Part shown: positions 12,192 through 60,761 of the stretch, piece after piece
How the letters are laid out: every line of letters begins with the position of its first letter
How positions within the stretch are numbered: position 1 is the stretch's first letter
Assembly (NCBI RefSeq): GCF_000382205.1
Contig: NZ_KB907787.1
Coordinates: 1,031,176 to 1,095,175, forward strand
Length of the DNA: 64,000 bases
Direction: 5' to 3'
Source of the DNA: Dyadobacter beijingensis DSM 21582
GTDB taxonomy: Bacteria; Bacteroidota; Bacteroidia; Cytophagales; Spirosomataceae
Translations under genes and position numbers: made by a program
Notes under the pieces: generated by a model
Told to the model about the DNA's origin: nothing
The model's input: the letters and a program-made list of their open reading frames with translations, nothing else
The model's database searches: none

Positions 12192-12228
12192 TTGTCCGCG
12201 CCCGAACAAATTTGTCCGATAACGGACA
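12192..12228. promoter_or_regulatory. Paired enhancer-like palindromes upstream of the adaptor gene
   Basis: Two copies of TGTCCR-N4-YGRACA: TGTCCGCGCCCGAACA (12193-12208, extending to TTGT...ACAA) and TGTCCGATAACGGACA (12213-12228). Centres are exactly 20 bp apart, putting them on the same helix face. They lie about 75 bp upstream of the -24 GG. I infer binding sites for the divergent NtrC-type activator. Confidence 0.75.
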
Positions 12229-12293
12229 GGTTTAGCATTGTTATGAATGTAAATGGTATTGATTTTCAAATGATTAGGATGGGTGGTTTGCTT

Positions 12294-12309
12294 TGGCATA
12301 GTGATTGGA
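12294..12309 (+). promoter_or_regulatory. Sigma-54-like promoter for the adaptor-ATPase genes
   Basis: TGGCATAGTGATTGGA compared with TGGCAC-R-N4-TTGCW: the -24 GG is present, TTG is in register for -12, with T for C at position 6 and G for C at position 15. Its expected start site is about 30 nt before the ATG at 12354. Confidence 0.6.
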
Positions 12310-12353
12310 TGATAGAAGCCAAATACAAAAGCGAACTCAATCACTAACATATA

Positions 12354-13661
12354 ATGGAAGTTAAGACACCTAACTCGACGAGCACCAGCAACGGATTTTC
12401 CGGAGGATCAACAATGGACCGAGTCAAACCCAAGAAATTCTGGAATACCAAACGCATCAGCATCATTGGCGGTAGCGTTCTGCTGGTCTCTTTCCTGATT
12501 TACCAGTTCTTTTTCGCCGACAAGCGCAGCAAACTGAATGTGGAGCAGGACAAACTGACGATATCGGAGGTTAAGAAAGGCAAGTTCGACGAATTCATCG
12601 TCGTGACCGGCGTGGTTCAGCCGCTGAAAACGATCCAGCTCGACGCGATCGTGGGCGGTTATGTTACTGAAAAACTCATCGAAGGCGGTAACATGGTGAA
12701 GCAGGGCGACGTGCTGCTCCGCCTGGAAAACCAGAACCTGAAACTAAGCTTCCTCCAATCGGAAACCGAGGCCAGCCGATTGGTAAACGACCTTCAAAAT
12801 ACGCGCCAAAACCTGAAAGTAGCGCGGTTTACCCTGCAAAAGACATTGAGCGACCTCGATTTCCAGCTCGATCAGGCGAAAGATGCGCATGACCGCAATG
12901 TGAAATTGTACAAGGATAAAGTCATCCCGGAGGCGGATTATCTGAAAACGAAGCGCGATTACGAAAAGCTGGTCAGACAGCGCGAGATCGAGATCGAATC
13001 GCAGAAATACCAGGAAGAGAACGCCAAAATGCAGATTAACCAGCTTGAAGGCACGTTGGCCAGCACGCAGAAAAACGTGAGCCTGTGGCGCCAGACATTG
13101 GATAACCTCGTGGTCAAAGCGCCGGTGTCGGGCCTGCTGTCGTCGATGAACATCGAAGTCGGTTCGAACATCAGCCAGGGACAAAATATCGGTCAGATCG
13201 ACGATTTGAATGGCTTTAAAATGCGTGTCAGCGTGGATGAGCATTATCTGTCGCGGATTTTCGTCGGGCTCGCAGGCTCGATGGAGTTCAATGGCAAGGA
13301 TTACGGCTTGAAAATCATCAAGATATACCCGGAGATTTTGAGCGGACGATTCGAAGTGGACATGAAGTTTGACAATGGCGCGCCGGAACTGGTGAAGAGA
13401 GGTCAATCGGCGCCGATCCGTCTGCAACTCGGGCAGCCTTCGCAGGCTACATTGCTGCCGGTCGGTGGTTTCTTCTCAGAAACCGGCGGGAACTGGGTGT
13501 ACGTAGTAGGCGACGGCGGCAAACGCGCAGCAAAACGCAAAATCACTTTGGGCCGTAAAAACCCGGAATATTTCGAAGTCCTCGAAGGCTTGCAGCCAGG
13601 TGAAAAAGTCATCACGAGCTCTTATGAGAACTTTGGAGATAATGAAGTCCTAGAATTCTAA
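12354..13661 (+). CDS. Membrane-fusion (HlyD/MacA-like) periplasmic adaptor
   Basis: A 435-aa adaptor of a tripartite export system. Layout: short cytoplasmic N-terminus, one transmembrane helix (about 36-53, ISIIGGSVLLVSFLIYQFFF), a lipoyl/barrel-sandwich half (IVGGYVTEKLIEGGNMVKQGDVLLRLEN), a long alpha-helical hairpin (about 120-245, Gln/Glu/Lys rich), the second lipoyl half (VVKAPVSGLLSSMNIEVGSNISQGQNIGQI), beta-barrel and membrane-proximal domains ending in LQPGEKVITSSYENFGDNEVLEF. It is followed after 115 nt by the ABC ATPase, as in MacA-MacB systems. No outer-membrane TolC-like gene is in the window. The gene has its own sigma-54-like promoter with paired upstream palindromes. Confidence 0.9.
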   Translation: MEVKTPNSTSTSNGFSGGSTMDRVKPKKFWNTKRISIIGGSVLLVSFLIYQFFFADKRSKLNVEQDKLTISEVKKGKFDEFIVVTGVVQPLKTIQLDAIVGGYVTEKLIEGGNMVKQGDVLLRLENQNLKLSFLQSETEASRLVNDLQNTRQNLKVARFTLQKTLSDLDFQLDQAKDAHDRNVKLYKDKVIPEADYLKTKRDYEKLVRQREIEIESQKYQEENAKMQINQLEGTLASTQKNVSLWRQTLDNLVVKAPVSGLLSSMNIEVGSNISQGQNIGQIDDLNGFKMRVSVDEHYLSRIFVGLAGSMEFNGKDYGLKIIKIYPEILSGRFEVDMKFDNGAPELVKRGQSAPIRLQLGQPSQATLLPVGGFFSETGGNWVYVVGDGGKRAAKRKITLGRKNPEYFEVLEGLQPGEKVITSSYENFGDNEVLEF

Positions 13662-13665
13662 AAGC

Positions 13666-13686
13666 GACGGTCGGTCGTCGGCCGTC
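13666..13686. repeat. Heptad-type repeat, locus C (downstream of adaptor)
   Basis: GACGGTCGGTCGTCGGCCGTC, a small inverted unit of the heptad family starting 4 nt after the adaptor stop, between the adaptor and ATPase genes. Confidence 0.6.
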
Positions 13687-13776: not shown

Positions 13777-14454
13777 ATGATCAAGATTAACAACATGCAC
13801 AAGGTATTTTCTACCGAGGAAGTAGAAACCACGGCCCTCAATGGCATCGACATGGAAGTGAAAGACGGCGAATTCGTCGCTATCATGGGCCCTTCCGGTT
13901 GCGGAAAATCGACCTTGCTGAACATCCTTGGGCTGCTGGACAACCCCAGTGAAGGCTCTTACGAGTTTTATGGCACGGAAGTAGCCAAAATGTCGGAACG
14001 CCAGCGTGCGCAGATCCGCAAGGGCAACATTGGTTTCGTGTTCCAAAGCTTTAACCTGATCGACGAGCTGACGGTGTACGAAAACGTGGAGCTGCCGCTG
14101 CTTTACCTCAAAACCCCTCCGGCAGAGCGCAAGGAGAAAGTGGAAGCCGCATTGACCCGCATGAACATGATGCACCGCCGCAACCACTTCCCGCAGCAGC
14201 TTTCGGGTGGTCAGCAGCAGCGTACGGCCATTGCCCGTGCCGTGGTGGCATCCCCCAAAACAATCCTGGCCGATGAGCCTACGGGTAACCTCGACTCTAA
14301 AAACGGGGAAGAAGTAATGAACCTGCTCAGCCAGCTCAACGGCGCCGGAACGACTATCCTTATGGTAACGCACTCGCCGTACGACGCCGGTTTCGCACAC
14401 CGTATCGTGAACCTGTTCGACGGCAAGATCGTCACCGAGAAAATACATGTTTAG
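13777..14454 (+). CDS. ABC transporter ATP-binding protein (MacB/LolD type)
   Basis: A 225-aa stand-alone nucleotide-binding subunit. Walker A GPSGCGKST (about 36-44), Q-loop Gln in VFQSFNLI, a DELTVYENVELPLLY segment typical of the MacB/LolD/FtsE group, signature LSGGQQQR, Walker B ILADEP and the His-switch VTHS are all intact. I chose the ATG giving MIKINNMHKVF; an upstream in-frame ATG at 13735 adds 14 residues lacking family similarity. It is the only ATP-binding subunit in the window although 17 permease genes follow, so it is the obvious shared energiser; that sharing is inference. It ends with an amphipathic tail (GKIVTEKIHV). Confidence 0.93.
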   Translation: MIKINNMHKVFSTEEVETTALNGIDMEVKDGEFVAIMGPSGCGKSTLLNILGLLDNPSEGSYEFYGTEVAKMSERQRAQIRKGNIGFVFQSFNLIDELTVYENVELPLLYLKTPPAERKEKVEAALTRMNMMHRRNHFPQQLSGGQQQRTAIARAVVASPKTILADEPTGNLDSKNGEEVMNLLSQLNGAGTTILMVTHSPYDAGFAHRIVNLFDGKIVTEKIHV

Positions 14455-14568
14455 AAATTCTCCGGCTATTGGCGACTAGCGTGGCAGTATAGCAGGAAAC
14501 TGATGCGGGGGCGTCCGGCCCCTTGGAACGTGACGTGAATACCCGGTGGATGCCCACTGAACCACAGC

Positions 14569-14576
14569 TAGTTTTG
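14569..14576 (+). promoter_or_regulatory. Candidate -7 promoter box (TAGTTTTG)
   Basis: A perfect TAnnTTTG box 22 nt before the ATG of the secreted protein gene. No good -33 TTG is present at the usual distance, so this is a weak call. Confidence 0.3.
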
Positions 14577-14597
14577 AACAATATGCCAAATCTAACC

Positions 14598-15260
14598 ATG
14601 AAGAAAATTCTAACCATCCTGTTGGCCGGCGTGAGCACGCTGGCCATCGCCCAAAAAAGAGCTTACCTGAGCAGAAGCATCGACGACGACGGCACGAAGC
14701 TGTCGATCAAGGTATCCGGCACGCTGGACGGAAAAGAAGTTGACATTAACAAGACCTTCGATGTGGCCGGTATGAGCCAGGAAGACCGCGAGGCGCTGCG
14801 CGATAAGGTCTTATCGTCCATCGCAGAAGGTAACCTCGAACTGCCCGCCCCGAAAACGCCCTGCAGCGAATCAGTGGCCGTAGCGACTCCCAAACGGAAG
14901 CCTAGGCCCGCGGCACCGGTAGCACCCGTAAAGAAGCATTCCGACGAGGATGAATCAGCGGCCAACGAGCCTGAGACAATGGCTTTCTCTTCCAATGAGG
15001 TGAATGCGGAGATCGTATCGTCGGGGAAAGGGTTTATCAAGGAGCCGGTTTCAACGGACCCGAAAGGTTTTTCCAAACACGTGCGCTACAACTCCGAAAC
15101 CGGCGAAATGTTTGTCAAATACCGGTTTATGAAAAACGGGGAGGAATACATCTACGAAAAGACCGTGAATGCCGCCGAAAAATCTGAAAAGGAACGGTCG
15201 AAGATCGTCGAAAACTTTGAAAGCGAGATAGGGTTGCCTGGTCAGGGCATGGAAATGTAA
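14598..15260 (+). CDS. Secreted protein of unknown function with internal duplication
   Basis: About 220 aa, not recognised. It begins with a clear signal peptide (MKKILTILLAGVSTLAIAQ). The mature part has two related blocks of about 50 residues: an N-terminal one (KLSIKVSGTLDGKEVDINKTFDVAGMSQEDREALRDKV region) and a C-terminal one (MFVKYRFMKNGEEYIYEKTVNAAEKSEKERSKIV region). They share the pattern G-K/E-E-x4-K-T-x3-A-x2-S-x3-R. Between them lies a Pro/Lys/Glu-rich, probably disordered linker. It sits between the ATPase and the first permease, 12 nt before the latter, so it is probably co-transcribed and could be a periplasmic accessory factor. In-frame ATGs at 14523 and 14583 would add residues before the signal peptide and are unlikely. 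Confidence 0.7.
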   Translation: MKKILTILLAGVSTLAIAQKRAYLSRSIDDDGTKLSIKVSGTLDGKEVDINKTFDVAGMSQEDREALRDKVLSSIAEGNLELPAPKTPCSESVAVATPKRKPRPAAPVAPVKKHSDEDESAANEPETMAFSSNEVNAEIVSSGKGFIKEPVSTDPKGFSKHVRYNSETGEMFVKYRFMKNGEEYIYEKTVNAAEKSEKERSKIVENFESEIGLPGQGMEM

Positions 15261-25898: not shown

Positions 25899-25934
25899 AG
25901 TCCAATACCGAACGAAGGTGTCCAAAAACGGACA
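25899..25934. promoter_or_regulatory. Paired enhancer-like palindromes upstream of P5
   Basis: AGTCCAATACCGAACG (25899-25914) and TGTCCAAAAACGGACA (25919-25934) fit TGTCCR-N4-YGRACA. Centre spacing is exactly 20 bp, and the proximal centre is 76 bp before the -24 GG at 26002-26003. Confidence 0.65.
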
Positions 25935-28508: not shown

Positions 28509-28510
28509 TC

Positions 28511-41524: not shown

Positions 41525-41552
41525 CCCGGCTGTCCGTTTTCGGACAGCCGGG
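41525..41552 (+). terminator. Perfect hairpin behind the barrel gene (overlaps enhancer-like palindrome)
   Basis: CCCGGCTGTCCG-TTTT-CGGACAGCCGGG, 12-bp perfect stem, followed by TATTTAGTTTTG. It may terminate the upstream gene; its core is also the TGTCCG-N4-CGGACA site listed separately. Confidence 0.55.
41531..41546. promoter_or_regulatory. Enhancer-like palindrome upstream of P9
   Basis: TGTCCGTTTTCGGACA, a perfect match to the TGTCCR-N4-YGGACA family. No second copy is found 20 bp away, unlike the other four regions. The centre is 63 bp before the -24-like GG at 41601. Confidence 0.6.
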
Positions 41553-44059: not shown

Positions 44060-44096
44060 CGTTCCAAAACGAACGGAACGTGTCCGATACCGAACA
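44060..44096. promoter_or_regulatory. Paired enhancer-like palindromes upstream of P10
   Basis: Proximal TGTCCGATACCGAACA (44081-44096), 15 of 16 positions to the consensus palindrome. The distal copy at 44060-44075 is degenerate (GTTC-CAAAAC-GAAC, centre 21 bp away). The proximal centre lies 75 bp before the -24 GG. Confidence 0.6.
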
Positions 44097-46642: not shown

Positions 46643-46665
46643 GGTTATTCCAAAGAATGTTGGTC

Positions 46666-49089: not shown

Positions 49090-49101
49090 TTGAACACTCA
49101 T

Positions 49102-51483
49102 ATGCGCGGTAATTATTTGAAATTCTCCTTCCGCAGCCTGGCGAAGCACAGAATGCACGCCGGTATCAACCTGGTCGGGCTTGCCATCGGTATGGCCGGC
49201 GCGATCGTGATTTTTCAATTGGTTAAGTACCACCTGAGCGTCGACCGGTACCATCGTAACGCGGACCGTACGTACCGCGTCGTCGTGGACTTGCATTTGG
49301 CGGATGGCTCGGTGGAGCAGGAGCGGGGCTCGGCGTATGTTTTGCATGAAACATTGAAAAAGGATTTCACTTATGTGGAAAATGCCGCTTATGTGGCGCA
49401 CAAGGAAATGACGATCCGCGTGGACCACCGAGGCGCTTCCCGGAAGTTTCTCGAAAAGGATCACGCCGTTTTTACCAATGCGGACTATTTTCAAATATTT
49501 GATTATAAATGGATTACAGGCAATTCGTCCGTGCTGAATGCGCCCGGGCAGGCCGTGGTGACGGAGCGCTACGCGCGGAAATACTTCGGCAGCGATGATG
49601 CGTTAGGCAAGGTAATCCGCGTCAATAACCGCGAGAATGTCGTCATAGCCGGCATTGTGGCCGATTATCCGGAGCAGACGGATTTCAAACAGGACATTTT
49701 CGTATCGCTTCCGACTTTGAAAAAGATCATCCCGGAATATGGTTACGAGGACTGGGGCTGGATCGATAGCGGCCGCGAAACGTTCATTACCCTGCATGCT
49801 GCCGCCGATAAAGCTGCGTTCGAAAGTCAGATGCCTGCTTTTGCCGACAAATATTACGGCCGCGACGGCAAGGTGTTCCATTACCATTTGCAGGAGCTCG
49901 CCGATGTGCATTTCAACATCGCTTACGGCGGAAAAATCAAGTTTAATACCATTCTGGTGTTGGGCACGGTGGGGGTGCTGCTCGTGCTGATCGCCTGCTT
50001 TAATTTTATCAACCTTTCTACCGCCCAGGCATTCAAGCGGAGCAGGGAAGTGGGTGTGCGCAAGGTGTTGGGCATTTCGCAGGTGCAGGTTTTCTGGCTG
50101 TTTTTACAGGAAACGATCTTGTTGACGGTGCTGGCCGGCGCCGTGTCGGTGTTGATCTCCTGGCTTTTTGCGCCGCTCCTGGGGACGTGGCTGGGACTGA
50201 GTGTGGCCGTTAACCCGTTCATGGATTGGCAGTTGTTCGCGTTTCTGGCATTGCTGCTGGTGTTCGTCGTGTTAATGGCGGGCGTTTATCCGGCATTTGT
50301 CGTGTCGAGCTTCAACCCGGTGAAGGCGATCAAGGGGCTTTTGAAGGAAAATAACCGGAGCTTTTTCTCCGTCAGGAAAAGTCTGGTGGTGACACAATTC
50401 AGCATTTCATTCGTCCTGATAGCGGTTTCGACGCTCATCATCCTGCAATCGGAGTACCTGAAAAACAAAGACCTGGGCATGGACAAAGACCTGGTCCTGC
50501 ACCTGAATTTGCCCGAAACGGAAACGGCCAAGCTCGCCGCATTGCGCAACGAACTGGCCGCATTGCCGGAGGTGACCGATCTGTCGTTTTTCAGGAGCGC
50601 GCCTTCCGTGCAGGTCAGCGGCGGCGGAACGATCAAATTCGAGAACCGCGACTGGGAGAAATTTGTGGCGCGGTCGAGGGCGGCGGACGATCATTTTGTC
50701 AAAACTTATGGATTGAAACTCGTGGCAGGGCGCGCTCCCATGCATTCGGATACGCTGAATGAGCTTCTGATCAACCATAAACTGGTGAAAGCATTAGGCC
50801 TGAAATCGCCGGAAGATGCACTGAACCGCCGCCTGCACGTGGGCGACGCGGGCAAAACGGGTACCATCGTGGGCGTGCTGTCCGACTTCAACAATGGCGA
50901 CCTGTACACCGGCATCGAGCCGACGATCGTATTCGCAGACCAGAAACGGTACCGGTCGGGAGGGGTGAAACTGAGCCGCCTGAACGCCCAGACGATCAAC
51001 CGGATCGCTGCGGCCTGGCAGAAGCAGTTCCCGGAGAATGTATTCGAATACAGTTTCTATGACGAAGAAATCGCGAAATTCTATCAGCGCGAAGAACTCG
51101 CTACGCGGCTTACCACCACATTCGCATTGCTTTCCGTGTGCCTGTCGTGCCTGGGACTTTTCGGTCTGGCGATCTTCGCCATCGAGCAGCGGACGAAGGA
51201 AATCGGCGTGCGGAAAGTGCTCGGTGCTTCGGTAGCGGGCATTACGGCCATGCTGTCGATGGATTTCCTGAAACTCGTTCTCGTGGCAATCGTCATGGCG
51301 AGCCCGGTTGCCTGGTATTTGATGGATAAATGGTTGCAGGACTTCGCCTACCGCATTGATATCCACTGGGGTATTTTCGCCTTGGCCGCTTTTCTGGCAG
51401 CAGGTATCGCCTTGCTCACGGTGGGTTTTCAGAGCGTCAAAGCGGCGCTCACCGACCCCGTGAAGTCACTGAGAAGCGAATGA
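49102..51483 (+). CDS. MacB/FtsX-type ABC permease P12
   Basis: 793 aa from the ATG at 49102 (MRGNYLKFSFRSLAKHRMHAG); a TTG at 49090 directly behind the P11 stop is in frame but adds only MNTH. It is of the same subtype as P7: TAQAFKRSREVGVRKVLGISQVQVFWLFLQET, DYFQIFDYKWITGN, and FPENVFEYSFYDEEIAKFYQREEL. TM1 is GLAIGMAGAIVIFQLV, lacking the usual acidic V/YDELS motif behind it (KYHLSVD). The second coupling segment is QRTKEIGVRKVLGASVAGITAMLSMDF. The tail is TDPVKSLRSE. A heptad repeat starts 13 nt behind its stop. Confidence 0.9.
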   Translation: MRGNYLKFSFRSLAKHRMHAGINLVGLAIGMAGAIVIFQLVKYHLSVDRYHRNADRTYRVVVDLHLADGSVEQERGSAYVLHETLKKDFTYVENAAYVAHKEMTIRVDHRGASRKFLEKDHAVFTNADYFQIFDYKWITGNSSVLNAPGQAVVTERYARKYFGSDDALGKVIRVNNRENVVIAGIVADYPEQTDFKQDIFVSLPTLKKIIPEYGYEDWGWIDSGRETFITLHAAADKAAFESQMPAFADKYYGRDGKVFHYHLQELADVHFNIAYGGKIKFNTILVLGTVGVLLVLIACFNFINLSTAQAFKRSREVGVRKVLGISQVQVFWLFLQETILLTVLAGAVSVLISWLFAPLLGTWLGLSVAVNPFMDWQLFAFLALLLVFVVLMAGVYPAFVVSSFNPVKAIKGLLKENNRSFFSVRKSLVVTQFSISFVLIAVSTLIILQSEYLKNKDLGMDKDLVLHLNLPETETAKLAALRNELAALPEVTDLSFFRSAPSVQVSGGGTIKFENRDWEKFVARSRAADDHFVKTYGLKLVAGRAPMHSDTLNELLINHKLVKALGLKSPEDALNRRLHVGDAGKTGTIVGVLSDFNNGDLYTGIEPTIVFADQKRYRSGGVKLSRLNAQTINRIAAAWQKQFPENVFEYSFYDEEIAKFYQREELATRLTTTFALLSVCLSCLGLFGLAIFAIEQRTKEIGVRKVLGASVAGITAMLSMDFLKLVLVAIVMASPVAWYLMDKWLQDFAYRIDIHWGIFALAAFLAAGIALLTVGFQSVKAALTDPVKSLRSE

Positions 51484-51496
51484 TATTAGAGAAAAT

Positions 51497-51528
51497 GGCG
51501 GTCGGCGGTCAGTTGTCGGCGGTTCGCC
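51497..51528. repeat. Heptad-type repeat, locus D (between P12 and P13)
   Basis: GGCGGTCGGCGGTCAGTTGT-type heptads followed by CGGCGGTTCGCC, in the 77-nt gap between P12 and P13. Confidence 0.6.
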
Positions 51529-51560
51529 CACTTGCATAGAACGTTAACCCAATAGCATCC

Positions 51561-53960
51561 ATGTTTAAAAACTATCTCAAAATCGCGTTCCGTAACCTGG
51601 TGAAGAGCAAGGGTTATTCGGCCATTAACATCGGTGGGCTGGCTGTGGGAATGGCCGTGGCCATGCTCATAGGCCTGTGGGTGTACGATGAATTCGCATT
51701 CGATCGCTACCATGAAAATTACGACCGCATTGCCAAAGTGGTGGAGCGGGGCGTGTATGAGGGTAAAAACTACGACGGCAGCCAGCATACGTCTTATCCG
51801 TTGGGCCAATACCTGCGCGAGCACCATAAGGAGGATTTCGAATATGTGATCCAGTCGTCGTTTACCGACCAGCACATTCTCGCATACAAAGACAATAAGT
51901 TTACCAAAAACGGGGGCTACATGAGTGCCGAAGTGCCGCACATGCTTACCCTGCACATGCGCCGCGGCACGCGCGACGGCCTCAAAGAACAGCATTCGAT
52001 CCTTATTTCGGAATCGGTGGCGGCGGCATTATTCGGGAATGAAAACCCGATGGACAAAATCGTGAAAATGGATAACCGCCACGATCTGAAAGTGACGGGC
52101 GTCTATGAAGACCTGCCTTACAACACGGAGTTCCGCGAGCTGACGTTCATCGCGCCGTGGGATCTGTACGTGGCCACGCAGGATTGGGTGCGCGAGGCGC
52201 GTGACAAGGAGCAGTGGAACAACAATTCCTGGCAACTGCTGACGCAAATCCGTGCCAACACGACATTTGACGGTGTTACGGCGAGGATAAAGCATATTAA
52301 AGTGCAACACACACCGGAAGCCCGGTTCCTGAAACCCGAAAGTTACCTGCTACCGATGTCGAAATGGCATTTGTACGGCACCTGGGACGACCGCGGCCAG
52401 CCCGACGCGCGCATTCGCTATGTGTGGCTTTTCGCGGTGATCGGTGCATTTGTGCTGCTGCTGGCGTCCATCAATTTTATGAACCTGAGCACCGCACGTT
52501 CCGAGAAGCGCGCCAAGGAAGTGGGTATCCGCAAGGCCGTGGGTTCGCTCCGGTCGCAGCTGATCAACCAGTTTTTCAGCGAGTCGCTGATGGTCGTGTT
52601 TTTTGCATTCATTATCGCCATTCTCATCGTGGTGCTTGCATTGCCGTTTTTCAACGAAATGGCCGACAAACGGCTCGTTTTCCCGTGGGCCAGCGCCTAT
52701 TTCTGGCTGGCGGGCATTGCGTTCTGCTTACTGACGGGCCTTTTGTCGGGCAGTTACCCGGCATTTTACCTGTCGTCCTTCCATCCGGTGAAGGTGCTCA
52801 AAGGTACATTCAGCGCAGGCAGGTTCGCGGGGGCGCCGCGCAAGGTGTTAGTGGTGCTGCAATTTACCGTTTCGGTGACGCTCATCATTGGTACGGCTAT
52901 TGTTTACAAACAAATCCAGCATGCCAAAAACCGCCCCGTCGGCTATGACAGGGAGGGGCTGATCACCATCGAGATCAATACGCCGGAGCTTTACAGCCAG
53001 TATAACCGCCTCCGCGGTGAGCTGCTGGAAACCGGCGCGGTGACGGAAATGTCAACCTCGTCGTCGCCCTCGACTTTCGTGGGTTCCAATAATGGCGGTT
53101 TCTCCTGGCCGGGCAAGGACCCGAACCTGCACGATAATTTTGGTACGATCGGCGTGAGCCATGATTTTGGTAAAACGATGGGCTGGCAGTTTATCGGAGG
53201 CCGCGATTTCTCCCGCCAGTTCTCCACCGACTCGACCGGGATGGTCATGAACGAAGCGGCCATGAAATATATGGGCTTCAAATCGCCCTCGGAAATCGTC
53301 GATCAAACCGTGAAATGGCGTGACAGGCCATTCAGAGTGGTGGGTGTGGTACGCGATATGGTAATGGGCTCGCCGTTTAGTCCGGTGCGTCCTACGGTGT
53401 TTATGGTCGATTATGGTTGGGCGAATTTCATCAATGTAAAGCTGAAACCGGGCCTGCCGCTCCGGGAATCGCTTGCGAAAGTGGGCGGCGTTTTCCGGGA
53501 AGTCAGCCCCGGCAGTCCATTCGATTACAAATTCACAGACCAGGAATATGCGCTGAAATTCGCAGCGGAAGAGCGCATTGCCACACTGGCATCGGTATTT
53601 GCGGCCTTGGCGATCCTGATCAGCTGCCTCGGGTTATTCGGGCTGGCATCATTCACGGCCGAGCAGCGGACGAAAGAAATCGGCGTCCGCAAAGTGCTGG
53701 GCGCGTCGGTGACAAACCTGTGGGCATTGCTGTCGCGGGAGTTTATTGTGTTGGTCGTCATTTCCTTTGTGATCTCTACCCCGCTGGCCTGGTATTTCCT
53801 CAATAACTGGCTTCAAAAATATGAGTACCGCACCAATATCCCGTGGTGGATCTTCGCCGGGGCGGGTGGCGGCGCATTGGCCATTACATTGATCACGGTG
53901 AGTTATCAGGCTATCAGGGCGGCATTGCTCGATCCTGTCAAGTCGCTGCGGAGCGAGTAG
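51561..53960 (+). CDS. MacB/FtsX-type ABC permease P13 (IGLW subtype)
   Basis: 799 aa. Head MFKNYLKIAFRNLVKSKGYSA. Subtype markers are VAMLIGLWVYDEFAFDRYHENYDR, TARSEKRAKEVGIRKAVGSLRSQLINQFFSES, QHAKNRPVGYDREGLI, IGVSHDFGKTMGWQFIGGRDFSRQFSTD and VVRDMVMGSPFSPVRPTVFM. In CLLAS-type position it has LLASINFMNL where most copies have LLACINFMNL. The second coupling segment is QRTKEIGVRKVLGASVTNLWALLSREF; the tail is LDPVKSLRSE. It follows a P7-like gene (P12), repeating the P7-P8 order. Confidence 0.9.
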   Translation: MFKNYLKIAFRNLVKSKGYSAINIGGLAVGMAVAMLIGLWVYDEFAFDRYHENYDRIAKVVERGVYEGKNYDGSQHTSYPLGQYLREHHKEDFEYVIQSSFTDQHILAYKDNKFTKNGGYMSAEVPHMLTLHMRRGTRDGLKEQHSILISESVAAALFGNENPMDKIVKMDNRHDLKVTGVYEDLPYNTEFRELTFIAPWDLYVATQDWVREARDKEQWNNNSWQLLTQIRANTTFDGVTARIKHIKVQHTPEARFLKPESYLLPMSKWHLYGTWDDRGQPDARIRYVWLFAVIGAFVLLLASINFMNLSTARSEKRAKEVGIRKAVGSLRSQLINQFFSESLMVVFFAFIIAILIVVLALPFFNEMADKRLVFPWASAYFWLAGIAFCLLTGLLSGSYPAFYLSSFHPVKVLKGTFSAGRFAGAPRKVLVVLQFTVSVTLIIGTAIVYKQIQHAKNRPVGYDREGLITIEINTPELYSQYNRLRGELLETGAVTEMSTSSSPSTFVGSNNGGFSWPGKDPNLHDNFGTIGVSHDFGKTMGWQFIGGRDFSRQFSTDSTGMVMNEAAMKYMGFKSPSEIVDQTVKWRDRPFRVVGVVRDMVMGSPFSPVRPTVFMVDYGWANFINVKLKPGLPLRESLAKVGGVFREVSPGSPFDYKFTDQEYALKFAAEERIATLASVFAALAILISCLGLFGLASFTAEQRTKEIGVRKVLGASVTNLWALLSREFIVLVVISFVISTPLAWYFLNNWLQKYEYRTNIPWWIFAGAGGGALAITLITVSYQAIRAALLDPVKSLRSE

Positions 53961-54009
53961 CTTTCAATCGTTAGTAGTCATTTTAGAACAGGCGTTCCAG
54001 AATAATCTT

Positions 54010-56427
54010 ATGTTTAAAAATTATCTCAAAATCGCTCTGCGTACCCTTTTGAAAAACAAAGGGTATACCGCTATTAATATCTCTGGTCTGGCGCTTGGAC
54101 TGGCTACCTGCCTGCTGATCGTGCTGTACGTGTCCGACGAGCTCAGTTACGACCAGCATCACCGCGCGGCCGACAGGCTTTTCCGCATTGCGATGACCAG
54201 TCGGGGGGAGCAATGGGCCGGCACGCCGGGACCGGTTGCCGCGGGTGTGAAAAGCGATTTCCCGGAAGTGGAATCGGTGACGCGCATCCTCAAATTTTCA
54301 GGGATCGACCGGATGCTGCTCGAAAACCGGCAGGGCGATGAGACGAAGCGATTTTACGAAACCAACGGCTATTACGCCGATTCGACGCTGTTCGATGTTT
54401 TTACCTATGATTTTAAGTATGGCGATCCGCGCACCGCGCTCGACAAGCCGAACACGCTCGTACTTTCGGAAGAAGTGGCGACCAAGCTTTTTGGCGATAC
54501 TGATCCCGTAGGTAAAGTGATCCGCGTGGGGCTGCTTTTCGGCGACTTCGATTACACCGTAACGGGCGTTTACCGCAACGACCGCAAGTCGCATATCGAT
54601 GCGCATTATTTTTTATCCATGCAAAACGGCGATATGGGCAGCTGGGTAACGGGCCAGAACAACTGGGCGATGAACAACATCTTCCATACCTACGTGAAGC
54701 TGCACAAGGGTGCGGACCCCGCCGCATTCGAGTCCAAACTGACGCCGTTCCTGGAACGCCACGGTGAAGCCGACCTGAAAGCGATGGGTATTTCGAAAGA
54801 ATTATTCATGCAGCCGGTACCTGACATTTACCTCCGATCGGCAATCGGGAACGAGCTCGCCCCGAACGGGAGCATGACTTACCTCTACATTTTCGGCTCC
54901 ATTGCCGTTTTTCTGTTGCTTATTGCCTGTATTAATTTTATGAACCTGAGCACGGCGCGCTCCGAGAAGCGGGCGCGGGAAGTCGGCGTGCGGAAGGTGA
55001 TGGGCGCCATGCGGAATGCATTGGTATTCCAGTTCCTGGGCGAGTCGATGATGCTGGCAGGTATGGCGCTAGGCATTGCGTTGCTGCTGGTGGCGCTGCT
55101 TTTGCCCTATTTCAATAACCTCACGGGTAAGGAGCTCGATATGCTCCGGGAGCCGGCATTTCTCTATTGGATTGCGGGTATTACCTTGTTTACGGGGCTG
55201 GTAGCGGGGCTTTATCCGGCATTTTACCTGTCGTCGTTCAAGCCGGTGAGTGTCCTTAAGGGGCGTATGGTGCATATCGGCTCGGCGGTAATGCTGCGGA
55301 AAGGGCTGGTAGTATTTCAATTTACAGTGTCCATCATCCTCATTCTCGGCGCGATCGTGATCGGGCAGCAGCTTTCTTTTTTGCAAAACCAGCACCTCGG
55401 TTTTAATAAGGAACAAAAACTGGTAATCCCTATCCGCAACGACAAGGCTGCAAAAAACTACCCTGCATTCCGCGAGGAAGTACTGCGGGTCCCGGGCGTC
55501 GCGGCGGCCACGAACGGCTCGGTGTATCCGGGTATTGAAAATATTGAAGACTTGCTTTTTTATGGGGAAAACAAGACGGTGCACGATGCCGTGGACGTGC
55601 ATTTCGCCACCGTCGGGGACGATTATGTGGAAACACTGGGCCTTTCGATGGTGGCCGGGCGTTCCTTCACAAAAGCATTCAGCGGTGATTCGAGCAGCAT
55701 CATCCTGAACGAAGCGGCCGTGCGGGAGCTGGGCTACGATGTGGCGACGGCCATCGGCAAGCATGTATTCTTCGAGCTGGGCGGCAAACGACGCAGTTTG
55801 CAGGTCGTAGGCGTGGTGAAGGATTTTAATTTCCACAGCCTGCACGAAGGGATCAAACCTTACGCCCTTACTACGAGCATTACCGACAAGTACCAGTATT
55901 TTATTGCCAGTATTCAAACGAAAGACTACGCCGGTGTGCTCGCATCGGTCGAAAATGCCTGGAAGCGCTTGAACCCCGGCATTCCGTTCGCCTATTCGTT
56001 TCTGGACGAGGATTTTCAGAAAAATTACCAGAAAGAGCAGCTGACGGGCAGCATTGTCGTGTATTTCACCTGCATTGCGGTCGTGATTGCCTGCCTGGGA
56101 TTATTCGGACTGGCGGCTTTCTCGGCGGAGCGGCGTACGAAGGAAATCGGTGTCCGCAAGGTACTGGGCGCTTCGGTGGGCAGCATCGTGGGCATGCTTT
56201 CGGGAGAATTTTTGTCACTGGTAGGCATCGCACTCGTCATCGCGACGCCCGTTGGGTGGGCGGGTATGCACCAATGGCTGCAAGGATTTGCCTATCAGGT
56301 GGGGATTCAGTGGTGGATTTTTCCGCTTACCGGGCTGCTGGCGGTAGCGGTAGCGCTGCTGACGGTCGGTTTTCAGAGTGTCAAAGCTGCGCTGATGAAC
56401 CCGGTGAAATCGCTGCGCAGCGAGTAG
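54010..56427 (+). CDS. MacB/FtsX-type ABC permease P14
   Basis: 805 aa. Head MFKNYLKIALRTLLKNKGYTA; TM1 GLALGLATCLLIVLYVSDELSYD. The first coupling segment is TARSEKRAREVGVRKVMGAMRNALVFQFLGES. The second periplasmic domain (DLLFYGENKTVHDAVDV, KDFNFHSLHEGIKPYAL, YSFLDEDFQKNYQKEQL) is most like P5, although the two genes are 28 kb apart. The second coupling segment is RRTKEIGVRKVLGASVGSIVGMLSGEF. The tail is MNPVKSLRSE. The C-terminal transmembrane region is unusually glycine-rich (TPVGWAGMHQWLQGF). Confidence 0.9.
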   Translation: MFKNYLKIALRTLLKNKGYTAINISGLALGLATCLLIVLYVSDELSYDQHHRAADRLFRIAMTSRGEQWAGTPGPVAAGVKSDFPEVESVTRILKFSGIDRMLLENRQGDETKRFYETNGYYADSTLFDVFTYDFKYGDPRTALDKPNTLVLSEEVATKLFGDTDPVGKVIRVGLLFGDFDYTVTGVYRNDRKSHIDAHYFLSMQNGDMGSWVTGQNNWAMNNIFHTYVKLHKGADPAAFESKLTPFLERHGEADLKAMGISKELFMQPVPDIYLRSAIGNELAPNGSMTYLYIFGSIAVFLLLIACINFMNLSTARSEKRAREVGVRKVMGAMRNALVFQFLGESMMLAGMALGIALLLVALLLPYFNNLTGKELDMLREPAFLYWIAGITLFTGLVAGLYPAFYLSSFKPVSVLKGRMVHIGSAVMLRKGLVVFQFTVSIILILGAIVIGQQLSFLQNQHLGFNKEQKLVIPIRNDKAAKNYPAFREEVLRVPGVAAATNGSVYPGIENIEDLLFYGENKTVHDAVDVHFATVGDDYVETLGLSMVAGRSFTKAFSGDSSSIILNEAAVRELGYDVATAIGKHVFFELGGKRRSLQVVGVVKDFNFHSLHEGIKPYALTTSITDKYQYFIASIQTKDYAGVLASVENAWKRLNPGIPFAYSFLDEDFQKNYQKEQLTGSIVVYFTCIAVVIACLGLFGLAAFSAERRTKEIGVRKVLGASVGSIVGMLSGEFLSLVGIALVIATPVGWAGMHQWLQGFAYQVGIQWWIFPLTGLLAVAVALLTVGFQSVKAALMNPVKSLRSE

Positions 56428-56461
56428 ATTAGGAACAAACGCAAATAAATCATCCAGGATC

Positions 56462-58831
56462 ATGCTGAAAAATTACTTCAAAATCGCATGGCGGAACCTG
56501 TTGAAAAACAAGGGGTATTCCGCTATTAACATTTGCGGGCTGTCGGTGGGGATGGCGGTGGCGGTGCTGATCGGCCTGTGGGTTTACGACGAACTGTCGT
56601 TTAACCATTACCACAAAAACCACGACCGGGTGGGGCAGGTGTGGCAATTTGTGCAGTTCGGACCGGAAAAATCACCCTACGACGTTGTACCCTTGCCGCT
56701 GGCGAATGAATTGCGCGAGAAATATCCGGACTTTGAAGCGGTAGCGAAGTCGGCTTACCGGGATGTGATTGTTACGTATGGCGACAAGATGTTTTCTAAG
56801 CCGGGGCAGTATGTGGAGCCGGCATTCACCAAAATGATGTCTGTGCGGATCGTTGCCGGCATCGATAATTTGAAGGAAGTAAATGCCGTGCTGCTATCTG
56901 AAACGTTTGCAAGGTCGCTGTTCGGAAGCGAAAGCCCGGTGAATAAGGTGTTGAAAATCAATAGCAATCGCGATGTTAAGGTGGCCGGGGTATTCCAGGA
57001 TATGCCCAATAACAGCACCTTCCGCAATACGCAGATACTGGCTCCCTGGGCGCTATGGACGGCCATGGACGCCTATGCCAAACGGACCGATACACAATGG
57101 GACGAGAATTCTTTCCAAGTCTTCGCACAGCTCCGTGAAGGCGCCGATTTCGCTGGCGTTTCGGCTAAAATCAAGGATTTACGTATGAAGCGCGAGAACC
57201 CGCCGGGGTACAAGCCGGAGTTTTTCCTTCATCCGATGAACCGCTGGCATTTATACTCCGATTTTGAAAACGGGCAGAATACGGGCGGGCTGATCACTTT
57301 CGTCTGGCTGTTCGGCATTATCGGTGTGTTCGTACTGCTGCTGGCCTGCATCAATTTCATGAACCTCAGCACGGCCCGGTCGGAAAAACGGGCCAGGGAA
57401 GTGGGCATCCGCAAGGCGATCGGGTCGCTCAAAGCACAGCTGGTGAGCCAGTTTTTCAGTGAATCGGTGCTGGTGGTATTCATTGCTTTCTGCCTGGCGC
57501 TCTTACTGGCGGGGCTCGCATTGCCGGTATTCAATCAGGTGGCCGAGAAAAAGATCGTTCTTCCGCTGACTAATCCGCTGTTCTGGCTCGCCGGGACCGT
57601 GTTTTCGCTTGCTACCGCCATGATCGCCGGCAGTTACCCGGCGCTATACCTCTCGTCGTTCCAGCCTTTGCAGGTTTTGAAAGGAACGTTCAAATCCGGA
57701 AGGTTTGCCGCATTGCCGCGGAAAGTGCTCGTCGTGACGCAGTTCACCGTTTCGGTGACGCTCATTATTGGTACCGTAGTCGTTTTCAGGCAAATCCAGC
57801 ATGCCAAAAACCGGCCTGTCGGGTATAGCAGGCAAGGATTGGTGGAGGTTGATATGAACACACCTGCATTGTATGGCCATTATAATGCATTGAAAAGCGA
57901 CCTGATGGGTACCGGTGCCGTGAGTGCCTATTCGCAATCGTCGGGCTCGGTAACGGTGCAGTATGGCGGCGTTACCAATCTCTCATGGCCCGGTAAGGCA
58001 CCGGATGCCGTGCCGCTGCTGATGTCCAACAGTATTTCGCATGACTACGGACAAACTGTCGCCTGGCAGGTAACCCAGGGCCGCGATTTTTCGCGCGCTT
58101 ACCCTACGGACTCGTCCGCGATGATCGTCAACGAATCGGCATTGTCGTTAATGGGCCTCAAAAAGCCGCTGGAATCGGTTTTGAACTGGGGCGGGAAGGA
58201 GTACCGGGTCATCGGCGTGGTGAAAGACATGGTGCGCGAGTCGCCGTTCAGCCAGATCAGCCCGGCATTTTACGTGGTAAACTACCGGAATACGAATGTG
58301 ATCAATATGCGGCTCACTCCGGATATGGGCGTGGCCGACGCGCTGGAAAAGGTGGGCGCGGTGTTCAGGAAGTATGATCCGAACAGTCCGTTTACCTACC
58401 AGTTTGTGGATACGCTGTTTGCTAAAAAATTCGCCGACGAGGAACGCATCGGCAAGCTGGCGTCTTTCTTCACGGCCCTGGCGATATTCATTTCCTGCCT
58501 CGGGCTATTCGGGCTGGCTTCTTTCGTAGCCGAGCAGCGTACGAAGGAAATCGGGATCAGGAAGGTGCTGGGCGCTTCGATCGCCAATTTGTGGCAACTG
58601 CTATCGACCGACTTTGTCGTGCTGGTGCTCGTCGCCTGTATCATTTCCGGCCCTATCGCCTGGTATTTTATGAGTGGGTGGCTGAAAAATTACTCCTACC
58701 GTACGGAAATATCATGGTGGATTTTCCTGGGCACGGCATTTGGTGCGCTGGCGATTACGTTGCTTACGGTCAGTTTCCAGGCCATTCGGGCGGCATTGAT
58801 CAACCCGGTGAAGTCGCTGAGAAGTGAGTGA
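56462..58831 (+). CDS. MacB/FtsX-type ABC permease P15 (IGLW subtype)
   Basis: 789 aa. Head MLKNYFKIAWRNLLKNKGYSA. Subtype markers are VAVLIGLWVYDELSFNHYHKNHDR, TARSEKRAREVGIRKAIGSLKAQLVSQFFSES, QHAKNRPVGYSRQGLV, SISHDYGQTVAWQVTQGRDFSRAYPTD and VVKDMVRESPFSQISPAFYV. The second coupling segment is QRTKEIGIRKVLGASIANLWQLLSTDF. The tail is INPVKSLRSE. It ends the P10-P15 run; the giant heptad repeat begins within 2 nt of its stop and separates it from the Wzi-type gene. Confidence 0.9.
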   Translation: MLKNYFKIAWRNLLKNKGYSAINICGLSVGMAVAVLIGLWVYDELSFNHYHKNHDRVGQVWQFVQFGPEKSPYDVVPLPLANELREKYPDFEAVAKSAYRDVIVTYGDKMFSKPGQYVEPAFTKMMSVRIVAGIDNLKEVNAVLLSETFARSLFGSESPVNKVLKINSNRDVKVAGVFQDMPNNSTFRNTQILAPWALWTAMDAYAKRTDTQWDENSFQVFAQLREGADFAGVSAKIKDLRMKRENPPGYKPEFFLHPMNRWHLYSDFENGQNTGGLITFVWLFGIIGVFVLLLACINFMNLSTARSEKRAREVGIRKAIGSLKAQLVSQFFSESVLVVFIAFCLALLLAGLALPVFNQVAEKKIVLPLTNPLFWLAGTVFSLATAMIAGSYPALYLSSFQPLQVLKGTFKSGRFAALPRKVLVVTQFTVSVTLIIGTVVVFRQIQHAKNRPVGYSRQGLVEVDMNTPALYGHYNALKSDLMGTGAVSAYSQSSGSVTVQYGGVTNLSWPGKAPDAVPLLMSNSISHDYGQTVAWQVTQGRDFSRAYPTDSSAMIVNESALSLMGLKKPLESVLNWGGKEYRVIGVVKDMVRESPFSQISPAFYVVNYRNTNVINMRLTPDMGVADALEKVGAVFRKYDPNSPFTYQFVDTLFAKKFADEERIGKLASFFTALAIFISCLGLFGLASFVAEQRTKEIGIRKVLGASIANLWQLLSTDFVVLVLVACIISGPIAWYFMSGWLKNYSYRTEISWWIFLGTAFGALAITLLTVSFQAIRAALINPVKSLRSE

Positions 58832-58832
58832 A

Positions 58833-59052
58833 GCGGACCGCCGACGGCTGATGGCCGACCGCCGACTGACCGCCGACCGCCGGTTGACGGCCGACGACCG
58901 ACGGCCGATCATCGGGCACGTAGGATGCCGTCAGCCGTCAGCGGTCGGCTGTCTGCCATCAGCGGTCGGCTGTCTACCATCAGCGGTCAGCCATCAACGG
59001 TCAGCGGTCAGCCGTCGGCCGTCAGTCGTCAGCGGTCAGCCATCAGCGGTCA
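58833..59052. repeat. Large heptad repeat with facing inverted arrays, locus E
   Basis: The left arm (58833-58910) is built of GCCGACS-type heptads with two short slips. After a 16-nt centre containing ATCGGGCACGTAGGAT, the right arm (58927-59052) is 18 uninterrupted heptads of consensus GCNRTCN (GCCGTCA, GCGGTCG, GCTGTCT, GCCATCA, GCGGTCA and so on). The two arms are inverted relative to each other and could form a very long imperfect hairpin. This fills most of the 318-nt gap between P15 and the Wzi-type gene. Open frames across it are artefacts of the GC-rich repeat. Confidence 0.9.
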
Positions 59053-59149
59053 CCTCCGCATTAATGTTCAGTTAAACAAGGCAAGCGGTAATACATTTTC
59101 GGCGGACTGGCTTTATCTTGCGGGGGAAACCTGATTAAACCCGATTCCC

Positions 59150-60649
59150 TTGCTTAAAACCTTTACTTTCAGTGTCGCCGCTCTTCTGATGCTTGTTTCC
59201 GGACCGCTTTGTGCCCAGAAAAGCATGGTCGTGTCCAATCTGGAAGCGAATGTGGAGGCGGGCAGCTATCTTTCTTCGAATGGTGAAACACCTTTTTGGC
59301 TGCGTACCAACCAGTTCGGCGCCGTTCCTGATCATGCCACGGCTGGTGTTCTGCAAGGCACCGCCCGACGGAATTACGTTTTTTACGACAGCCTGGCCGG
59401 CAAGCCGCGGAGGTTCGATTGGAGCGCCGGCGTGAGCCCGGTAGGGGTATATAACAAGGAAAACAAATTTGAATTCCTCCTCCCGGAGGCGCATGCGAGC
59501 GTGCGTTTCAAGCGTATGGAACTGTATGTGGGCCGTCGCCGCGAGGTAATGGGCCTGGGTGATTCCACGCTATCTTCGGGTTTTTATTCGGTGTCGGGCA
59601 ATTCGCTGCCGGTTCCCAAGGTGCAGATCGGAACGGTGGGTTTTACACCTTTGAAGTTCACGGGCAATTTCCTCGCCGTTCACGCCGGGTTTGCACACGG
59701 CTGGTTCAATACCGATTACATTCAGGGTGTGCGGCTACACCAGAAATTCCTTTACCTGCGGCTGGGAAAAAAGAAAAGCAAGCTTTACCTCGGTCTGAAC
59801 CACAATGTGATGTGGGCCGGGCATTCGGAATACCTGAAACAACATCCTGAACTGGCCGTGAACGGTGAGCTGCCGTCGTCGTGGTCCATTTACCCGAATG
59901 TGGTGCTCGCATTTACTTCCAAAAACTGGTTCGAGAAAAACGGGTACGGGGCATTCGACAGCTACCGGGTAGGCAATCACCTGGGCAGCTATGACATCGC
60001 TTTTGAGACGAAACTCAGCGATTACCGTCTTTTTATCTATCACCAGCACCCTTTCGAGGACGTTTCGAGTATGCTGTTCAAGAACATTCCGGACGGATTG
60101 TACGGCATTAACTTTAAACTGAAACCAGGTAATGTGCATAGCGGCCTTACGCTCACGCACCTCACGCTGGAATTTCTCTCCACCAGCGATCAGTCGGGTA
60201 CCGAGTTTTACATTCCCGGCAGCAAATACCAGGGCGCCGACAACTATTTTAACCATACCCAATATTCAGAGGGCTGGTCGTACAAGGGACGTACCGTGGG
60301 CACGCCGTTTATCATTCCCGGCAAGGATATGGACCAGTCGAAGCTCGTGAACCCGCGCTATTTTCCCAACAACCGCGTGCATGTATGGTACGCGGGTGCG
60401 CAGGCGAATGCGGGCCGTGCGCTCGCGCTTACGCTGCGACTTTCGTACAGCCGCAACTTCGGGACACCCGGCGCCGACTTCGATCCGCCGCGAGGCCAGT
60501 TTTCCGGTGTGCTGGGTGCGCAATATCGCCTGCCGGGCCTCCTGCCGGGCCTGAAAAATACCAGCATTCTCGCCCGCGTGGCCAGTGATCGGGGCGATAT
60601 TTTCAGCCCGCGCACAGGGGGGTATATCGGTATTCGCAAGGACTGGTAA
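59150..60649 (+). CDS. Wzi-family capsule assembly outer-membrane protein
   Basis: A 499-aa outer-membrane beta-barrel with a signal peptide (about 1-22, TFSVAALLMLVSGPLCAQ). The family look is clear: NLEANVEAGSYLSSNGETPFWLRTNQFG near the N-terminus, then VGRRREVMGLGDSTLSSGFYSVSGNSLPVPKVQIG, then YLGLNHNVMWAGHSEYL, and RDGLYGINFKL-type DGLYGINFKLK. Wzi of enterobacteria anchors capsule to the surface; many Bacteroidota proteins of this family have no known capsule link. No ATG is available in frame before the signal peptide (an in-frame TGA lies at 59132-59134), so translation probably begins at TTG 59150. It is flanked by permease genes and the giant heptad repeat. Confidence 0.82.
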   Translation: MLKTFTFSVAALLMLVSGPLCAQKSMVVSNLEANVEAGSYLSSNGETPFWLRTNQFGAVPDHATAGVLQGTARRNYVFYDSLAGKPRRFDWSAGVSPVGVYNKENKFEFLLPEAHASVRFKRMELYVGRRREVMGLGDSTLSSGFYSVSGNSLPVPKVQIGTVGFTPLKFTGNFLAVHAGFAHGWFNTDYIQGVRLHQKFLYLRLGKKKSKLYLGLNHNVMWAGHSEYLKQHPELAVNGELPSSWSIYPNVVLAFTSKNWFEKNGYGAFDSYRVGNHLGSYDIAFETKLSDYRLFIYHQHPFEDVSSMLFKNIPDGLYGINFKLKPGNVHSGLTLTHLTLEFLSTSDQSGTEFYIPGSKYQGADNYFNHTQYSEGWSYKGRTVGTPFIIPGKDMDQSKLVNPRYFPNNRVHVWYAGAQANAGRALALTLRLSYSRNFGTPGADFDPPRGQFSGVLGAQYRLPGLLPGLKNTSILARVASDRGDIFSPRTGGYIGIRKDW

Positions 60650-60654
60650 AGTGC

Positions 60655-60691
60655 TTGTCCACGGGTGGACAAGGTTGTCCGAATTCGGACA
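60655..60691. promoter_or_regulatory. Paired enhancer-like palindromes upstream of P16
   Basis: TGTCCACGGGTGGACA (60656-60671) and TGTCCGAATTCGGACA (60676-60691), both perfect 16-bp palindromes, extended by flanking T/A. Centre spacing is exactly 20 bp. The proximal centre is 64 bp before the -24 GG. These are the best-conserved pair in the window. Confidence 0.75.
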
Positions 60692-60745
60692 GTTTCTGTG
60701 CTTTTTTATCCTATAATGTATTGATTATTAATCGGTTGTTTTGCC

Positions 60746-60761
60746 TGGCATAACTTTGTTG
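60746..60761 (+). promoter_or_regulatory. Sigma-54-like promoter of P16
   Basis: TGGCATAACTTTGTTG: -24 GG and TGGCAT identical to the adaptor promoter, but the -12 TTTGT lies one base closer than canonical. It is about 80 nt before the P16 ATG. Confidence 0.4.

Follow-up and report, generated by a model that had tools for sequence, protein, structure and literature searches.

We have analysed a 64,000-nucleotide stretch of the 7.4-Mb genome assembly of Dyadobacter beijingensis (C2:1031176-1095175, hereafter the window; the genome itself is denoted G000), in which the gene of an NtrC-type response regulator lies beside genes for a periplasmic adaptor, an ATP-binding cassette (ABC) ATPase and a long array of MacB/FtsX-type permeases, and in which a 16-bp palindrome recurs upstream of the adaptor gene and of four permease genes. 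The present work concerns these palindromes, the predicted sigma-54 (RpoN)-type promoters that they accompany, and the regulon to which they belong. The whole genome was searched by pattern and by profile and was read in stretches.

Regulator, target genes and palindromic sites of the window

The regulator gene (10671..12041, reverse strand) encodes a bacterial enhancer-binding protein (bEBP) consisting of a receiver domain, a sigma-54 AAA+ domain with a GAFTDA loop, and a Fis-type helix-turn-helix domain (PF00072, PF00158, PF25601, and PF02954). An earlier reading of this DNA made from its letters alone (hereafter the sequence-only reading) had named it an NtrC-type activator with a Fis-type DNA-binding domain, and the Pfam matches to PF00072, PF00158, and PF02954 lie above their cut-offs. 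The protein is up to 97% identical to its counterparts in named Dyadobacter strains, is matched at E ≤ 1e-120 in 117 of 150 genomes of the family, and falls short of the cut-off for the PEP-CTERM response regulator TIGR02915 (404.1 vs. 502.6 bits). Its loop, which reads GAFTDA and not GAFTGA, recurs in 17 of 21 orthologue rows (one has GSFTDA and three were unmatched by our script), and GAFTDA is listed among the variants that would keep activity in a survey of Desulfovibrio (PMC4641369).

The likely partner of this regulator, judged by its relatives, is the histidine kinase encoded at C2:1029859-1031181, of which the first bases (1..6, reverse strand) fall within the window. This kinase is 67% identical to the one encoded directly downstream of the regulator in Arundinibacter, where, as in many other relatives, the kinase gene follows the regulator gene, and it is the single match to the Arundinibacter-type kinase in the D. 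beijingensis genome at 1e-40. In D. beijingensis the two genes are separated by a GH127 gene, by thiamine-related genes (named by eye), and by others; the GH127 glycosidase gene (8631-10577) adjoins the regulator gene in Dyadobacter, at the side occupied by the kinase gene in many other genera of the family. By hydropathy, no periplasmic domain was seen in this kinase or in 17 related kinases, which have one or two adjoining N-terminal hydrophobic stretches.

On the forward strand, the HlyD/MacA-type periplasmic adaptor gene (12354..13661; PF13437, TIGR01730) is followed by that of an ABC ATPase (13777..14454), which is MacB/LolD-like by eye in its translation and adjoins the adaptor gene in relatives as well. 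The permease genes preceded by palindromes, all on the same strand, are P5, with P6 only 2 bp behind it (26052..30925), P9 (41655..44033), P10, which leads six genes (P10-P15) with gaps of at most 77 bp (44225..58831), and P16 (60842..63241), next to which a 17th permease gene runs out of the window. The permeases are homologous to those of the 'duplicated orphan permease' (ADOP) model TIGR03434 and score below its cut-off, the best of the genome reaching 368 bits against 622.3. The cut-offs for the darobactin exporter (DarB/DarC) are missed both by the adaptor (190.2 vs. 450 bits) and by the permeases, of which four were scanned (none above 176.5 vs. 700 bits).

Seven exact copies of the palindrome TGTCCR-N4-YGRACA are present in the window. 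The adaptor promoter has two of them, a distal (12193..12208) and a proximal one (12213..12228), both kept in orthologues; P5 has a distal copy with two mismatches (25899..25914) and an exact proximal copy (25919..25934); P9 has a single exact copy (41531..41546); P10 has a degenerate distal copy (CGTTCCAAAACGAACG, four mismatches; 44060..44075) and an exact proximal copy (44081..44096); and P16 has two exact copies (60656..60671 and 60676..60691). Measured from start to start, the pairs are spaced by 20 bp at the adaptor, P5, and P16 and by 21 bp at P10. Hence the five regions, the paired layout, and the distances of 75, 76, 63, 75, and 64 bp from the centre of the proximal palindrome to about the second G of a -24-like element are all as the sequence-only reading had given them, with the addition that the distal copy at 25899 is also degenerate.

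Anatomy of the predicted three-part promoters

The -24-like elements of the window, all on the forward strand, are TGGCATAGTGATTGGA at the adaptor (12294..12309), TGGTACAATTATTCAT at P5 (26001..26016), TGGTACACATTTAATG at P9 (41600..41615), TGGTGCATAATTTGAC at P10 (44162..44177), and TGGCATAACTTTGTTG at P16 (60746..60761). The -12 elements had been overstated: the -12 half is convincing at the adaptor (TGGCAT-N5-TTGGA) and at P10 (TGGTGC-N5-TTGAC), whereas it is poor at P5 and P16 and no fitting one is present at P9. At P16, the -24 region (TAACTTTG) bears a by-eye likeness to the sigma-A motif of Bacteroidota, TAnnTTTG. The genome has one rpoN gene (C1:646183).

A set of 56 promoters, consisting of 21 from D. 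beijingensis and 35 from 40 fetched regions of its relatives, was assembled for a statistical description; five regions (L223, L237, L243, L260, and L261) were dropped for want of a downstream permease, PadR, adaptor, or ATPase gene, and the sites of L243, L260, and L261 lie within other reading frames. The TGGYR elements of these promoters fall into two distance classes that differ by one turn of DNA: counted from the first base of the proximal palindrome, 23 of them lie at 69-71 bp and 17 at 78-82 bp, and no other position holds more than two. Within windows of 68-71 and 78-82 bp, which were set after looking at the data, such an element is found in 15 of the 21 D. beijingensis promoters (mean 0.56 and maximum 5 in 2000 shuffles) and in 25 of the 35 promoters of relatives (mean 0.81, maximum 5), or 40/56 combined, and the positions recur with a period of 10.5 bp (p about 4e-4 and 6e-7 in Rayleigh tests, the relatives not being mutually independent). 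Columns 0-5 of the -24 element were used for selection, so their conservation is partly circular; the -12 columns (10-13) were not so used, and in 55 promoters (C4:1064986, with TAGCAT at +80, was left out of this count) they read T in 75%, T in 87%, T in 71%, and G in 51%.

Between the proximal palindrome and the -24 element lies a third element, which was absent from the sequence-only reading. In the window it is represented by TTGATTTTCAA at the adaptor (12259..12269, at +46 from the proximal palindrome), TTGATAGTTAA at P5 (25965..25975, with a second candidate next to it at 25976-25986), TTCATTATCAG at P9 (41576..41586), TTGATTTTCAG at P10 (44128..44138), and TTGATTATTAA at P16 (60721..60731). 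Motif discovery in the spacers of the 56 promoters yielded YTGATTATCAR, the best match to which starts at +44 to +47 in 35 promoters and at +34 to +36 in 10; its log-likelihood is 111.5 compared with 24-39 in six shuffled sets, which were run with fewer starts and rounds. When the 45 promoters scoring at least 5 are aligned on this element, the extended form TAA-N4-YTGATWATCAR-N4-TTA emerges. A matrix retrained on the 35 promoters of relatives gives the 21 D. beijingensis promoters an average of 7.67, as against 3.45 for shuffles (sd 0.58, maximum 4.97), this matrix having been started from a motif-discovery matrix that had seen all 56 promoters. Of 57 rows of the orthologous adaptor promoter, at least four of which (L151, L153, L162, and L163) repeat a genome already represented, 44 have a like element at +43 to +48, and this element recurs amid a spacer that otherwise looks diverged.

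The majority form of the third element (45/56) contains the consensus of integration host factor (IHF), WATCARNNNNTTR (PMC9820253), in both orientations. The exact and unfitted IHF consensus is present at +34 to +67 in 5 of the 21 D. beijingensis promoters (mean 0.09 and maximum 2 in 500 shuffles) and in 12 of the 35 promoters of relatives (mean 0.13, maximum 2), or 17/56 combined; with at most one mismatch allowed, it is present in 32/56, viz. 12/21 (shuffle mean 1.93, maximum 6) and 20/35 (mean 2.33, maximum 9).

Extent of the predicted regulon in the genome and in the family

Throughout the D. beijingensis genome, the exact pattern has 9 forward and 9 reverse matches, compared with 2 and 2 for a reversed-pattern control. 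They correspond to 12 distinct places (7 in the window and 5 outside), and all 12 lie upstream of the adaptor gene, a MacB/FtsX-type permease gene, or a unit of PadR-like and permease genes. Each of the five outside places precedes a permease gene or a PadR-like gene with a permease gene (gene names near these places were given by eye, permeases also by profile matches), and the C1 place faces, on its opposite side, an ECF-sigma-like gene as well. On the question of whether the palindrome is equally common elsewhere, the exact pattern thus exceeds its control and the one-mismatch pattern equals it; a two-mismatch scan of the window is mildly enriched (42 vs. a shuffle mean of 28.2, sd 7.6, with 5 of 100 shuffles reaching 42). 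The palindrome signal resides in exact copies, in pairs, and in position.

Two further searches point to the same class of genes. The genome was scanned, with no gene information, with a profile built from 30 palindrome pairs; this gave 21 matches at E ≤ 10 in 15 places, 13 of which are promoters described here. Of the other two, C1:236359 is the weakest match, and C4:1068230 matches in part and lies about 640 bp ahead of a permease gene. A site matrix with a score threshold of 15.8 picks out 21 of the 41 upstream stretches, each of 600 bp (those of 39 permease genes, the adaptor gene, and one TonB-like gene), and finds nothing outside such stretches in 186,289 positions scanned, which reduce to 179,662 unique positions because the loci overlap; the threshold was chosen after seeing the sites, the matrix includes some of the genome's own sites, and much of the control DNA is permease coding sequence. 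The genome encodes about 40 permeases of the MacB/FtsX type, one of them split, and 29 of the 40 stand behind one of the 21 promoters (12/17 in or just past the window and 17/23 elsewhere) when units are assigned by common strand and gaps of up to about 115 bp. The sequence-only reading had described a regulon embedded in the permease array, a placement that was too narrow, as 16 of the 21 promoters lie outside the window, on C2 and five other contigs. The permease at C1:1625002-1627463, which lies in two overlapping frames and is probably disrupted, is outside the set of permeases read for sites.

Some neighbouring features of the window may be recorded here. Between the ATPase gene and the first permease gene, 14523-15260 encodes a probably secreted protein of unknown family, similar sequences to which are found behind the ATPase gene in L034, L036, and L181. 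Two gene pairs resembling toxin-antitoxin systems (ParE-like and PIN-like by eye) occupy gaps of the permease array (~25350-25890 and 36477-37080), and a tract of short GC-rich near-repeats, also noted by eye, extends from P15 toward the next gene (~58835-59060).

The promoter layout is conserved among related genera. At the adaptor gene, the pair (20 bp) together with TGGCAY at +81, the distance seen in D. beijingensis, is present in 32 of 36 named loci, including those of Persicitalea and Arundinibacter; of the remaining loci, L034 and L036 keep the adaptor promoter farther from the regulator gene, and no adaptor gene was found within L035 and L040. In eight loci whose regulator is 66-67% identical, the two palindromes are spaced by 21 bp, and in all but one the -24 element lies at +70/+71, one turn closer (the eighth, L161, has no strict -24 match there). 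Among relatives, a target gene lies downstream in 18 of 20 pair regions chosen from a genus listing, behind 10 of 11 exact sites in G069, in 5 of 5 regions in G061, and in 2 of 4 fetched regions in G051 (of whose six exact places four were fetched, one is the adaptor promoter, and C11:225346 was left out).

Three regions of relatives merit separate mention, the first two being those of the 20 pair regions that lack a target gene. At L223:3112-3260 (G037) an intact promoter of the P16 type, with pair, third element, and TGGCAT, has no permease gene behind it that we could find, and loss of that gene may have left the promoter orphaned. At L237:3114-3400 (G029) the full layout precedes a gene (3331-3729) whose product is small and secreted and may belong to the regulon without a role in transport. 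At L244:3052-6301 (G069) a site precedes an ABC ATPase gene, farther downstream of which a TolC-like outer-membrane protein is encoded (by eye).

The genome-wide abundance of the palindrome was compared among the 150 family genomes, grouped by the identity of their best match to the regulator with limits (63, 57, and 50%) that were set after looking at the data. In the 84 genomes with at least 63% identity there are 1755 sites vs. 463 for the control, and 80 of the 84 exceed their own control; in the 32 genomes with no regulator match at 1e-120 the numbers are 45 and 44. Several genomes with 50-62% identity keep the adaptor site. Of the 33 genomes without a match at E ≤ 1e-120, 19 were searched again at a looser threshold, and G126 (64%, split) was placed by hand in the uppermost group; with 6/11 sites, it had been a candidate for a regulator-less exception, which was rejected when the regulator gene was found in two pieces at both ends of one contig. 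An excess of palindromes is found only where a regulator of at least 63% identity is present. Within one genus (g28), forward sites number 3-10 in the eight genomes that have the regulator and 0, 1, and 0 in three that do not; these three genomes, as well as G165, contain no permeases of the MacB/FtsX type at E ≤ 1e-40. In G041, which has 15 permeases and no full-length regulator match at 1e-120, there are 4/1 sites vs. 1/2 for the control.

Interpretation and relation to known systems

Helical phasing, conservation, near restriction to a gene class, and co-occurrence with the activator support the proposal of the sequence-only reading that the palindromes act as upstream activator sites, in the layout of enhancer-binding-protein targets, of predicted RpoN-type promoters. 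We consider this core, activator sites at sigma-54-type promoters, well founded, with a probability of about 0.87. We propose that an NtrC-type two-component system controls a genome-wide regulon of MacB/FtsX permeases together with the adaptor and the ATPase. In this mechanism, the histidine kinase, which lacks a periplasmic sensor domain, would phosphorylate the 10671-12041 regulator; the phosphorylated protein would then bind one or two palindromes, 20-22 bp apart when paired and followed, after about 70 or 81 bp, by the -24 element, and a bend at the third element, with its IHF-type consensus in both orientations, would bring activator and polymerase together. The signal, which like the exported substrate we infer, would most likely be envelope or antimicrobial stress felt through the exporter.

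A number of observations weigh against this proposal. About 8-11 of the ~40 permeases are without a site (P7, P8, C3:18399, C3:15934, C3:259097, C4:1056941, and C6:287437 among them), and P2-P4 are covered only by read-through across a 344-bp gap. Activators adjoin other permeases, so more than one activator may serve the gene class. The -12 position reads TTCAT at P5, TAATG at P9, and TGTTG at P16, and the canonical GC of the -12 element is not conserved, C being present in only 22% of the 55 promoters. One-mismatch single palindromes show no excess in the genome (96/89 vs. 97/102 for the control); hence degenerate single copies are uninformative and were not used as evidence. Among relatives, neither L237 nor one L254 site precedes a permease; at the latter (L254:4674, in G061) no target gene is near in the stretch read. 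Genomes with 57-62% (20 genomes) and 50-54% (14 genomes) regulator identity show no genome-wide excess, with 105 vs. 87 and 65 vs. 122 sites, respectively. Since regulator, sites, and permeases are jointly absent from the three g28 genomes and G165, the co-absence in these four congeners cannot separate regulator from permeases, and G041, the sole genome that does separate them, keeps a relative 57% identical over residues 154-455.

Another of the ~19 activators of the genome, or several of them, might bind these palindromes, the sites and their RpoN promoters being real all the same; we regard this as improbable. The genome does encode 19 strong sigma-54 activator domains, and activators also adjoin permeases at C3:258398 and C4:1054668; those permeases, however, have no palindrome, which suggests that they and their activators form parallel modules with other binding specificities. 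Moreover, the excess of palindromes tracks the closest orthologues of the present regulator over the 150 genomes, and among 16 other activators of the genome whose recognition helices were read (two more lie outside that reading), only the helix of L094 is similar, and its neighbouring permease is without a palindrome. Binding of the sites by the 10671-12041 product is a prediction, here as in the sequence-only reading. More improbable still is that the palindrome is the operator of another kind of regulator, such as a PadR repressor acting on ordinary promoters, with incidental TGGCA motifs. Several target units do start with a PadR-like gene (recognised by eye and from their resemblance to one such gene), and the -12 elements are poor in 3 of the 5 window promoters; the same palindrome, however, is found where a permease has no adjoining PadR gene, PadR operators have another spacing, and the recurrence of TGGYR at two positions one turn apart in 40/56 promoters is something that a repressor site does not need.

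For the third element, we judge the odds to be slightly in favour of a DNA-bending site. IHF commonly binds between activator sites and an RpoN promoter (PMC7962754), which is the place that the element occupies; its extended form equals the IHF consensus read from both sides (PMC9820253), and exact consensus copies far exceed shuffles both in D. beijingensis and in its relatives. A nearly comparable, somewhat less probable view, compatible with the rest of our proposal, is that another transcription factor binds at the element or that the activator itself makes an additional contact there. The element is palindromic and keeps a mostly constant distance from the activator sites (+44 to +47, whether the promoter is of the 70- or the 81-bp class), and IHF proper has been described as essentially proteobacterial, by a study from which the half of the Bacteroidetes proteins that aligned poorly had been excluded (PMC5683647). 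Because IHF is common at this place of such promoters and yet essentially proteobacterial, and because the consensus occurs in both orientations, we infer that a homodimeric protein of the HU/IHF type may serve as the bending protein at these promoters. A broader scheme, which we advance tentatively and consider rather unlikely to hold in full, is that dozens of MacB/FtsX permeases are handled by one sigma-54 activator as exchangeable parts of a single exporter, that the domain-less kinase reads the working state of the permeases (flux sensing), and that a homodimeric HU/IHF-family protein bends the promoters at the symmetric IHF-type site, heterodimeric IHF not being expected in Bacteroidota.

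The predicted sigma-54 regulon is larger than the sequence-only reading described, occurs in many genera of the family, and has a three-part promoter of canonical layout. A shared control module of this kind would tie ADOP-type permeases to one adaptor and one ATPase and would make the response of the permease family testable, as one coordinated response, by the deletion of a single gene. It also resolves a predicted sigma-54 regulon to activator sites for this part of the Bacteroidota, and the symmetric IHF-like element provides a sharp prediction on DNA-bending proteins outside proteobacteria.

Classical bEBP promoters (those of NtrC, NifA, and others) combine paired activator sites, an IHF bend, and -24/-12 elements. 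The promoters described here share with them the order and phasing of the elements and the activator domains (for the role of IHF, see PMC7962754), and differ in the symmetric third element, the -12 element without a conserved GC, the GAFTDA loop, and the MacB/FtsX permease targets. The presence of a domain-less kinase and of exporter genes may also recall, by analogy, the Bce modules. Bce regulators, however, are not of the NtrC type and induce their own transporter, whereas the present regulator is NtrC-type with an AAA+ domain and appears to serve, alone, many scattered permeases, and an adaptor is present. The resemblance lies in a sensor kinase without an extracellular domain (with two membrane helices in Bce modules; here by hydropathy only) and an ABC exporter induced by a response regulator, and for Bce modules it has been proposed that such a kinase senses transporter cycling (PMC10314905).

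The permeases themselves resemble ADOP-type permeases, which are reported as being of 'unknown function' and as numbering 28 and 33 genes in two Dyadobacter genomes (PMC11573002), in their length, their duplicated MacB_PCD-FtsX architecture, and their high copy number; they differ in that all of them score below the TIGR03434 cut-off and in that the adaptor, the ATPase, and many permeases are tied by a common promoter type. A literature search that left subscription journals mostly uncovered returned no earlier work on sigma-54 in Dyadobacter, on sigma-54 enhancer-binding proteins with ABC transporter permeases in Bacteroidetes, or on MacB and FtsX with sigma-54 in Cytophagales. Sigma-54 control of COG0577/FtsX-like permeases in Bacteroidia has been predicted in a 2025 matrix survey (Carrera-Reyna et al., PMC12316311), whose main text contains no mention of Dyadobacter or Spirosoma. 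Our results agree with that prediction, which was made from promoter matrices, in the sigma factor and in the broad gene class; they differ from it in that the available part of the survey gives enrichment at the class level and names no activator, palindrome, spacing, kinase, third element, or regulon extent. The parts of the system are thus of known kinds, and their combination, the symmetric bend-type element, and the scale of the regulon are new as far as the literature was searched.

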